Shown: positions 30,600 through 34,332 of the stretch, in pieces | How positions within the stretch are numbered: position 1 is the first letter of the stretch | How the letters are laid out: each line of letters opens with the position of its first letter | DNA from: Rhodopila sp. | GTDB taxonomy: Bacteria; Pseudomonadota; Alphaproteobacteria; Acetobacterales; Acetobacteraceae | Direction of reading: 5' to 3' | DNA: 42,000 nucleotides | Assembly (NCBI GenBank): GCA_025355085.1 | Contig: JANXLQ010000114.1 | Span: forward strand, 1-42,000 | Program-made: the position numbers and the translations under genes | Notes under the pieces: model-generated | Databases searched by the model: none | What the model was told of the DNA's origin: nothing | The model's input: the letters and a program-made list of their open reading frames with translations, nothing else

Positions 30600-32015
30600 C
30601 TACCGAACCGCCGAGCGATAGAGTTCGGTGCTGAAATCCGGTGGTACATCGCCGTTCATGCGATTGCGCAGTATGGTCAGGTCATCGTGGAACAGATCGG
30701 CGCTGATTCGGCTGACAATCACCGGAATATCTCGCTTCATACTCGGGACATCGCCGATTGGCAGTCCGAAGCTCAGGAACCCCGCCGGATTCTGCACATG
30801 GATGTGCTTTAGCAAGGGCGATGCGCCGGGCGTTTTTTCCAGGAATTCGTGCCCTGCACCCAGATAAGGGTAAAAACCGAGCATTTCGTCGCGTTCGGCT
30901 TGGGGTGGCAGGAAACGATCGCGCCAAAGCAGGATATGGTTGGCAAAATCGATCAATTCTGGCCGCGATGCCAGGCCGGGGGAATAGCCGGTGCCGGCGA
31001 TCACGAAATCAAAACGATAGGATTCACCATTTATCGTTGTCTCGGTTGCGTCGTTGCGTTCTGTCGCATTCGCCCAGAGCGCCGCGAGGTGCAAATGAAA
31101 ATTGGGAAATTTCACAGTGCGCTCGATCGCGTCGGTCGTTGGCGTCGAACCGAAGCGGAAATACCGCATCGCCTGATGCCACCGGTCGGCGTCGGGAAGC
31201 TGGTAGTAGTTGTCATAAGCACCGGGAAAGCCGCGGGATCGGGTTATCGGCGTCGCGGCGATGGTGTCGCGCCGGGCGAACAGATGAACGGCGGCGGCGC
31301 CATGCTCCAACGCGACTCCAGCGGCGTCGAAGGCCGCGGCGGCACCCCCGATCACAGCGACAGTCCGGCCGCGCAGCGCGGTGAAGTCGATCGCGTCTTC
31401 TGTGTGGGCGTACAATGCGGGTGAAAGGTTAGCCGTCAGTACATCTGGAACGAACTTGCCGCCGCCGCCAAAGAAACCCGTGGCCAGGACGATCTTTCTG
31501 GTCGTTTCGGTCGTGACCCCATTTGGGCCATCAAGGTGCAACCGAAAATGATCCGTAAGCGGTTCAATCCGCGTCAGGCGGGTCGCATAGCGCGGATTGA
31601 TACCAAGGAAATGCTTATACCAACGGATGTAATCAGCCCAATCGGTCCGTTTGATACGGTCGATCCCGGCGTAAGCCTGCTGCCCGTGGCGCGCTTCGTA
31701 CCATGCCTGGAAACTGAGCGCCGGAATGCCGAGTTCCGGGCCCGGCAGTGCTTTCGGCGTCCGCAACAGGTTCATGCGCGCGGCATTCAACCAGATGCCG
31801 GCCCGTTGCTCGTTCGGTGCCGCTTCCAGCACAGTGACCTTGCCGATCCCGGAGCGCCGCAATGCAAACGCCAGCGCGCATCCGGTTTGTCCGCCGCCGG
31901 CGATCGTGACGTTGTGATCGATGCCCGGACGATCAGGCACCCAGTTGGCTGGATCGGGACCCAGCAGGCGAAGTGCTGTCCGGGCATCCGTGTCCGGATC
32001 GTGCGGCTGGGTCAT
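30600..32015 (-). CDS. FAD-dependent monooxygenase-like protein (two Rossmann folds)
   Basis: A 471-aa flavoprotein related to class B flavin monooxygenases and SidA/PvdA-type N-hydroxylases. The FAD site is GGGQTGCALAFALRRSG (about residues 41-57). The NADPH site is VAVIGGAAAAFDAAGVALEHGA, a looser form of the GxGxSA motif. A GTGYSPGL segment near the C-terminus matches the family's ATGY-type motif. ATG at 32015 with AGAGGAAAG upstream. Substrate not recognised. It precedes the SDR gene and lies downstream of a collapsed Zn-ADH on the same strand, suggesting an oxidation pathway that once had an alcohol dehydrogenase. Confidence 0.8.
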   Translation of the reverse strand: MTQPHDPDTDARTALRLLGPDPANWVPDRPGIDHNVTIAGGGQTGCALAFALRRSGIGKVTVLEAAPNEQRAGIWLNAARMNLLRTPKALPGPELGIPALSFQAWYEARHGQQAYAGIDRIKRTDWADYIRWYKHFLGINPRYATRLTRIEPLTDHFRLHLDGPNGVTTETTRKIVLATGFFGGGGKFVPDVLTANLSPALYAHTEDAIDFTALRGRTVAVIGGAAAAFDAAGVALEHGAAAVHLFARRDTIAATPITRSRGFPGAYDNYYQLPDADRWHQAMRYFRFGSTPTTDAIERTVKFPNFHLHLAALWANATERNDATETTINGESYRFDFVIAGTGYSPGLASRPELIDFANHILLWRDRFLPPQAERDEMLGFYPYLGAGHEFLEKTPGASPLLKHIHVQNPAGFLSFGLPIGDVPSMKRDIPVIVSRISADLFHDDLTILRNRMNGDVPPDFSTELYRSAVR

Positions 32016-32116
32016 GTGTTCTTTCCTCTACAGTTCGGTCGTTCCGTTGTCTGCCAACAACATCGGTCGCCAGCCGGCGGCCTCGCCGGCACCAGCATTC
32101 GGCGCTAACCGGCGCG

Positions 32117-32395
32117 CTAATCGAACATCGGCACCGTGCGTGCCATCTCGCCCACCCGCATGCTGGTAATGTCGGCACCCACCGCCTCGACCACGCCGGC
32201 GCCTTCGTGACCCAGTACGAAGGGCAGGTCCATGGGATAGCGGCTCAGTCCGTCCACGACGTGCAAATCGCTGTGACACACGCCGGTGGCAGCGGTACGG
32301 ACCAGCACTTCCCGGCCTCGGGGTTTGTCGATGTCCACGGTTTCGATCGTCAGTGCTTCGTGGACCCGGCGAAAGATGGCGGCGCTGCTTTGCAT
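32117..32395 (-). pseudogene. Zn-dependent alcohol dehydrogenase with in-frame internal deletion
   Basis: A 92-aa ORF starts at ATG 32395 behind GGGAGCG. Residues 1-75 are a good N-terminus of a zinc alcohol dehydrogenase: EVLVRTAATGVCHSDLHVVDG (part) with the catalytic-zinc Cys and LPFVLGHEGAGVVEAVGAD with the zinc His. Full proteins are about 360 residues. The chain then jumps to SMRVGEMARTVPMFD and stops; that tail resembles the extreme C-terminus of the same family (a -GE-AR-V--FD ending). The simplest reading is loss of some 270 codons in frame near residues 76-83 (32147-32170). It lacks the structural zinc loop and NAD domain and cannot be an active ADH. The tail assignment is from memory of the family. 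Confidence 0.75.
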
Positions 32396-32548
32396 GATGC
32401 TCGCTCCCTTATTGGTTGCGGCAAGTATAGCGCTCGCGCCGGGGTAGGGAAGATGCCGGCCAGGATACGAACGCTTCGGCCGGGAACGCCCGCCATCGCC
32501 AGTCCGTCTGCCATGCGCTATTCTGCTGGAAAGCAACGGGAGAATTCC

Positions 32549-32908
32549 ATGCCGGCCACCAATCGTGTCGCATTGATCACCGGTTGCGGCAAACCTGTTG
32601 GTATCGGCAACTCCACCGCCCTCGTGCTGGCAGCTTCGGGCATCGCCGTGGTTGTCGCCGACCTCGCACCGTTCGGCATCACCGTCAACGCGGTGCTTCC
32701 CGGTCCGATCCGGACGACGCGGGCGATCAGCACCAATCGGCGCGAATACGGCGATGACCTGGAGGCCGGTTTCAGGGAGCGTGCGAAGGACATTCCCGTC
32801 GGTCGCTTCGGCTCCCCGGAGGAGGTCGCGGCGACCATCGCGTTCCTGGTTTCGGACGGGGCGAGCTTCGTCACCGGCCAGGCAATCGGTGTCGATGGCG
32901 GCTGGTAA
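32549..32908 (+). pseudogene. SDR oxidoreductase with in-frame internal deletion
   Basis: A 119-aa ORF whose N-terminus (RVALITGCGKPVGIGNSTA) is a normal SDR nucleotide-binding start and whose second half (FGITVNAVLPGPIRTT to SFVTGQAIGVDGGW) is a normal SDR C-terminus. The middle 130 or so residues, holding NNAG, the catalytic Ser and the YxxxK pair, are absent. The join lies at VVVADLAP|FGITVN (about 32660-32672). LAP occurs both after strand 2 and before FGITVN in relatives, so recombination across CTCGCACCG is a likely cause. The frame is kept and an AACGGGAG lies upstream, so a product may still be made, but it cannot be a working dehydrogenase. Confidence 0.78.
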
Positions 32909-33114
32909 GCCGATGGTGCAAGCGCCGTCGCTGGCGCCGAATCCGCCGTCATGCTCTACGCGATGCGGCTGATCGCCAATGGGCCGTTTAACCGCGGCCA
33001 TAATGGTGACCAGCGCCGTTTGATCGGCTACGTATTGACCCCCACCACCTGACCGATGCCAATCGCGCATCGCCGGGTTATTCCGCAGAACCCACACCAC
33101 GGGAAAACGATCCT

Positions 33115-34332
33115 ATGCCTGGCATCCTGAGCGACCTTCGCATCGTGGAAGTGTCCGCCTTTATCGCGGCCCCATTGGGCGGCATGACCCTCGCGCAGCT
33201 CGGTGCCGACGTCATTCGTATCGATCCCATCGGTGGCAACATCGACGCAAAGCGTTGGCCCTTGGCGCCCGATGGCACCAGCCTGTACTGGGCCAGCCTG
33301 AACAAATCCAAGCGTTCGGTCTGCCTCGCGCTAAATACGCCGGAAGGGCAGGAGATCGCCCAGTCGCTGATCCGCGCACCGGGACCGAATGCGGGCATTC
33401 TGCTGACCAACCTGCCGGCGGGTAAATGGATGGGATACGATGTGCTGAAGCAGGGCCGCGAAGACCTGATCGTCCTGCGCCTGATGGGCAACTCCGACGG
33501 CGGCGCCGCCATCGACTACACCGTCAACTGCGCCAGTGGTTTTCCCTTCGCCACCGGCCGGGGCGGGGAACCCGTCAACCACGTCCTGCCCGCCTGGGAC
33601 ATCGCCACGGGCCTGTATCTCTCGACCGGTTTGCTGGCGGCGGAACGCGCCCGCCATCGCACCGGGCATGGCCAGGAGGTGACGCTGGCGCTGTCCGACG
33701 TGATGCTAGCCTCGGTCGCCAACCTTGGCTATGTCGCTGACGTTCAGGTTAACAACGCTGTGCGCCCGCCGCTGGGCAACGACCTGTACGGCGCGTTTGG
33801 CCGGGATTTTGCCACATCGGACGGACGCCGGATCATGCTGACCGCGATCTCCAACCGCCAATGGCGGGCGATCGGCAAGGCTACCGGCCTAACGGACAAG
33901 CTGGCGATGATCGGGCCGATGCTGGACCTCGACCTGGACACCGAAGGCGGGCGTTTCGAGGCAACAGACGCCATTTGCGCCGTGCTAAAGCCGTGGTTCG
34001 CCCGGCGCACGCTGGCCGAAATTCACGCGGCCCTGGATGGCAGCGGCGTGCTGTGGGGGCCGTATCAGGATTTTGGCCAATTGGTGCATGAAGACCCGCG
34101 CTGCTCGCTGGCAAACCCCATGTTCGGCGAAATAGACCAACCCGGAGCCGGCCGGATTTTGGCCAACGCCGTGCCATTGGCATTCAGCACCGACATCCGC
34201 CCGCCGGCGGCTCGGGCGCCGCGCCTGGGCGAGCATACCGAAGCCGTTCTGACCGGCCTGTTGGGCCTGTCGTCCGCCCAATACGGCAAGCTGCACGATG
34301 CCGGCGTCGTCGCCGGCCCCACAAATCGATAG
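33115..34332 (+). CDS. mct: 2-methylfumaryl-CoA isomerase (mesaconyl-CoA C1-C4 CoA transferase)
   Basis: A 405-aa class III CoA-transferase that closely follows the Chloroflexus Mct sequence as I remember it: VSAFIAAPLGGMTLAQLGAD, RIDPIGGNIDAKRWP, NHVLPAWDIATG with catalytic D162, GNDLYGAFGRDF and RQWRAIGKATGLTD-like segments, and the ending PRLGEHTEAVLTGLLGLS...LHDAGVVAGP. Mct moves CoA within one molecule, turning mesaconyl-C1-CoA (2-methylfumaryl-CoA) into mesaconyl-C4-CoA (3-methylfumaryl-CoA) in the 3-hydroxypropionate bicycle. GGGA lies about ten bases before the ATG. The next gene, 12 bases on, encodes Mcd, whose product is exactly the Mct substrate, which strongly supports the call. 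Confidence 0.83.
   Translation: MPGILSDLRIVEVSAFIAAPLGGMTLAQLGADVIRIDPIGGNIDAKRWPLAPDGTSLYWASLNKSKRSVCLALNTPEGQEIAQSLIRAPGPNAGILLTNLPAGKWMGYDVLKQGREDLIVLRLMGNSDGGAAIDYTVNCASGFPFATGRGGEPVNHVLPAWDIATGLYLSTGLLAAERARHRTGHGQEVTLALSDVMLASVANLGYVADVQVNNAVRPPLGNDLYGAFGRDFATSDGRRIMLTAISNRQWRAIGKATGLTDKLAMIGPMLDLDLDTEGGRFEATDAICAVLKPWFARRTLAEIHAALDGSGVLWGPYQDFGQLVHEDPRCSLANPMFGEIDQPGAGRILANAVPLAFSTDIRPPAARAPRLGEHTEAVLTGLLGLSSAQYGKLHDAGVVAGPTNR

Follow-up and report, generated by a model that had tools for sequence, protein, structure and literature searches.

The 42,000-nt stretch of Rhodopila sp. DNA analysed here (the window) carries an open reading frame of 92 codons plus TAG, which joins the two ends of a medium-chain zinc alcohol dehydrogenase (ADH). 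The next gene, transcribed divergently, is a shortened short-chain dehydrogenase (SDR), and these remnants lie between two intact genes. The features of the locus are as follows.

30600..32015, minus strand: flavin-dependent oxidoreductase gene, intact, 471 aa, bounding the remnants on the ADH side
32117..32395, minus strand: in-frame remnant of a medium-chain zinc ADH, 92 aa against 361–365 aa in relatives
32117..32149, minus strand: retained ADH C-terminal codons, E-M-A-R-T-V-P-M-F-D-stop
32147..32161, minus strand: ADH deletion joint, codons 79–83, M-R-V-G-E, with GGCGA common to both parental sites in many relatives
32549..32908, plus strand: in-frame remnant of an SDR, 119 aa against 271–274 aa in relatives
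32660..32671, plus strand: SDR deletion joint, codons 38–41, D-L-A-P, with about 465 bp lost against most relatives
32930..33052, plus strand: likely C-terminal fragment of a 2-oxoglutarate-dehydrogenase-E1-like gene, matching relative G005
33115..34332, plus strand: class III CoA-transferase gene, intact, 405 aa, bounding the remnants at the opposite end, with orthologues 86–93% identical in seven relatives

A scan of positions 32000–33120 for promoters and terminators found none. The ADH frame stays open further upstream, over 32117–33100 on the minus strand (327 codons to a GTG), antisense to the SDR remnant, and this long open frame may mislead gene finders.

Searches by tblastn followed by alignment identified orthologues of the ADH in 13 of the 32 other genomes of the genus, with 73–79% identity (73–80% by tblastn) and no gaps over remnant residues 1–83. 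Where the whole gene could be read, the orthologous protein has 361–365 aa and terminates with FRAMKAGEVARTVLMFD or a sequence close to it. The remnant protein (MQSSAAIFRR...GADITSMRVGEMARTVPMFD) retains the first 79–83 and the last 9–13 residues of these proteins, and the 269–273 residues between them are gone, corresponding to about 819 bp (807 bp against two 361-aa relatives). The sequence-only reading had described a zinc ADH shrunk in frame to 92 residues with about 270 missing, and the match of full-length orthologues to both ends confirms this description; the alignment to full-length ADHs that it had proposed, run on orthologues from the genus, places the joint at codons 79–83. The C-terminus reads GEMARTVPMFD in the remnant and GEVARTVLMFD in relatives, and the final nine residues (MARTVPMFD-stop against VARTVLMFD-stop) are identical at 7/9 positions with the same end point. 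The unambiguous C-terminal part comprises 9–11 residues; the 15 residues previously assigned to the family C-terminus include the joint.

The intact relatives are nearest to the NCBIfam models for NDMA-dependent ADH (TIGR03989) and class III ADH (TIGR02818), scoring well under the curated cut-offs, and the best solved relative is 7aas. The remnant matches these proteins in residues 1–83, in the last 9–13 residues, and in Cys-40 (GVCHSD) and His-63–Glu-64 (GHE), which are invariant across 24 aligned relatives; the zinc-binding Cys and His of the N-terminus are therefore in place, as first described. The 269–273 central residues that medium-chain zinc ADHs have and the remnant lacks carry the remainder of the GroES-like fold, the NAD(P)-binding Rossmann domain (GxGGVG, present as GCGGVG or GVGGVG in relatives) and two zinc features, namely the four-Cys structural site and the third ligand of the catalytic zinc. 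Pfam ADH_N (PF08240) is matched only at profile positions 3–58 of 104, so the GroES-like N-terminal catalytic domain is itself incomplete. The catalytic ligand set of Cys, His(-Glu) and Cys is likewise incomplete, with the third ligand of the family falling in the deleted segment.

The codons across the ADH joint are ATG CGG GTG GGC GAG ATG GCA CGC. The corresponding parental sites in a typical relative are GTG CGC GTG GGC GAC CAC on the N-terminal side and ATG AAG GCC GGC GAG GTC on the C-terminal side, so that the joint coincides with an echo between R-x-G-D, after residue 79, and K-A-G-E, near the end of the protein. In the relatives' sequences, 7–10 of 18 nt match between the two sites, with a longest exact run of 2–6 nt (P 0.02–0.2 against random position pairs), and the GGCGA echo amounts to 5–6 exact nt in many of them. 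Judged on these relatives, the repeat is a suggestive rather than a strong candidate for the deletion endpoint, and GGCGA is likely the crossover point. The original proposal of a deletion between short homologous R-V/A-G-D/E stretches thus fits the full-length relatives, although the ADH repeat spans only 5–6 nt and the neighbouring SDR, with D-V/L-A-P, offers the clearer case.

In the SDR remnant, the joint codons GAC CTC GCA CCG fall on an imperfect 12-nt repeat, D-V-A-P/D-L-A-P. Most relatives have D-V-A-P at the N-terminal site and D-L-A-P at the C-terminal site; the closest relative encodes the former, near the gene start, as GAT GTC GCG CCG and the latter, near its end, as GAT CTG GCG CCG. 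Here 10–13 of 21 nt match in the relatives' sequences, with a longest exact run of 4–9 nt (P 0.002–0.05 against random pairs); a short repeat at the deletion endpoints thus appears clear for the SDR and weaker for the ADH. The Pfam match is split accordingly, covering PF00106 positions 1–31 and then PF13561 positions 159–235. The remnant shares with the classical SDR family (PF13561/PF00106) the N-terminal strand with its glycine-rich motif of the TGxxxxxGIG type and the last 80 residues, but some 155 residues in the middle, among them the catalytic Tyr-x-x-x-Lys stretch (YAASK in relatives), are gone.

In the interval from the SDR remnant to the CoA-transferase gene, positions 32930–33052 match the last ~40 codons of an 876-aa gene in G005, which is a 2-oxoglutarate dehydrogenase E1 by Pfam and is immediately followed by the CoA-transferase orthologue. 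The window reads LYAMRLIANGPFNRGHNGDQRRLIG where G005 reads LYAGRPEAASPAGSFHDDHDDDQRRLVE. At the DNA level the similarity covers a short 33 nt at 85% (E 3.5e-4 for a small search set); it is collinear, and another match of 25 nt, which supports it, ends where the CoA-transferase gene starts. The segment is thus probably the 3' scrap of a 2-oxoglutarate-dehydrogenase-E1-like gene.

The CoA-transferase is closest (86–93% identical) to those of G010, G012, G025, G005, G017, G019 and G020, and all seven genomes are without a close ADH or SDR orthologue. Four other relatives (G032, G007, G009 and G027) carry both ADH and SDR, on different contigs. This distribution suggests that both genes are dispensable in the genus and were brought together in this lineage, perhaps by transfer. 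It is also compatible with a single complex rearrangement, such as the transfer or insertion of a DNA segment, having produced all three remnants at once instead of separate slippage deletions, and the three do lie within 1 kb. Such an origin is nevertheless unlikely, since the two clean in-frame joints, each at its own repeat within a gene, require at least two deletions.

The host genome is a 4.94-Mb draft of 471 contigs (completeness 100%, contamination 2.9%), in which the window corresponds to contig C34 (42,000 bases), and is probably metagenome-derived. The fragmentation leaves room for an assembly or library chimera, in which the population would carry full-length genes and the assembler or PCR would have joined them across short repeats. 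Assembly k-mers are usually 21 or more, and the stretch shared at the joints is at most 9 nt in relatives, below that length. Searches of the bin with the lost segments found no copy of either elsewhere: the best match was a 46% paralogue for the ADH and the SDR remnant itself for the SDR, and a full-length second copy within the bin was therefore rejected. The presence of two separate joints beside a third, diverged remnant also favours real decay, and we consider a chimera improbable.

When the whole bin was scanned by family, 15 ADH_N, 80 SDR and 44 CoA-transferase matches were obtained. The ADH/SDR pair was the only case seen in which the middle is missing and the frame is kept, among short matches that were inspected in part. 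One inspected match, on contig C8, runs to the contig end, and another, on C352, is an ADH without its C-terminus. The latter zinc ADH (L178:1558-2001) stops after 147 codons and lies beside an apparent alaS on the opposite strand; its C-terminal part was not found in the surrounding 4 kb. With no second in-frame collapse among the inspected matches of the ADH, SDR and CoA-transferase scans, a genome-wide process of this kind was rejected, and the decay appears to be local.

The retained frame had initially been taken as a sign that this is not ordinary decay. We counted exact direct repeats lying 300–1200 bp apart inside single genes and scored their codon phase. For repeats of at least 8, 9 and 10 nt, respectively, 60%, 64% and 73% were in phase in 20 genes of the window, and 64%, 68% and 68% in 112 genes taken from relatives; chance alone would give 33%. 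Given that 60–73% of the window's repeats are codon-phased, two in-frame deletions out of two are unremarkable and need no selection for an open frame. As an in-frame product is the commonest outcome of short-repeat deletion in these GC-rich genes, and two further remnants adjoin the ADH, that earlier argument does not hold. It is well established that deletions at repeats under the RecA threshold contribute to genome variation in bacteria (PMC2884548). The deletions surveyed there likewise have endpoints at repeats far below the length for RecA-dependent recombination; the present case differs in that the repeats are imperfect and two adjacent genes are hit, both in frame.

Divergence was estimated by the NG86 method. 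Between the ADH remnant and intact orthologues, dN was 0.13–0.19 and dS about 1 (dN/dS about 0.1–0.2), with dN at the upper end of the range between distant intact orthologues. No stops or other further decay were seen in the collapsed frames. These intact-like dN/dS values, together with the absence of stops, suggest that the deletions are probably recent. As a test of selection on the remnant, dN/dS was rejected as uninformative, because the values are the same as for intact orthologues.

The sequence-only reading had offered, as an alternative, that the product is kept as a small zinc-binding protein. A small zinc-binding or regulatory protein derived from the ADH N-terminal domain would accord with the open frame with its start and stop, with the conserved Cys-40 and His-63–Glu-64, and with the dN/dS of about 0.1–0.2. 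However, the deletion has removed the NAD domain, the structural zinc site and the third of the catalytic ligands, only 56 of the 104 GroES-like domain positions are left, and three of 54 positions invariant in intact orthologues are altered. An AlphaFold2 model of the remnant has a mean pLDDT of 68, with the zinc-ligand loop (residues 38–64) mostly below 50, and this loop is predicted to be disordered. The 92-aa form was not found in any other genome of the genus, and a scan of genome contigs gave mainly matches to the N-terminal part of more remote homologues, with the collapsed form not among them. The adjoining SDR gene has collapsed as well. Retention of such a protein is very unlikely, and the proposal finds no support in the distribution of the short form or in the poorly modelled zinc loop. 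It is also very improbable that the 92- and 119-residue proteins are expressed and maintained together, as a pair of divergently transcribed mini-proteins derived from the ADH and SDR. Judging from the lost domains, the ADH remnant would probably yield no functional product.

We therefore favour, with a probability of roughly 0.8, the reading that the ADH frame is a pseudogene left from an accessory zinc ADH gene by a single short-repeat deletion, with the neighbouring SDR and third gene likewise reduced. In this pathway, two short, imperfect repeats in the same codon phase (R-x-G-D and K-A-G-E) would have been the endpoints of a deletion that removed about 819 bp and fused the first 79–83 codons to the last 9–13, likely by replication slippage or by short-homology recombination independent of RecA. 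The SDR gene would have been shortened in a second such event, and the third gene beside it would have been cut down to its 3' end. The fused frame would have stayed open through the mostly codon-phased short repeats of GC-rich genes, not through retention of the product. One point against the pseudogene reading is that collapsed frames without further decay would also fit maintained coding.

The three remnants would thus form an ordinary cluster of accessory pseudogenes made by short-homology deletions. The locus neatly illustrates why the in-frame collapse of a gene is no evidence of a new small protein. As most short repeats within the genes of GC-rich genomes are codon-phased, deletions at short homologies there tend to produce open frames, which gene finders will annotate as genes.
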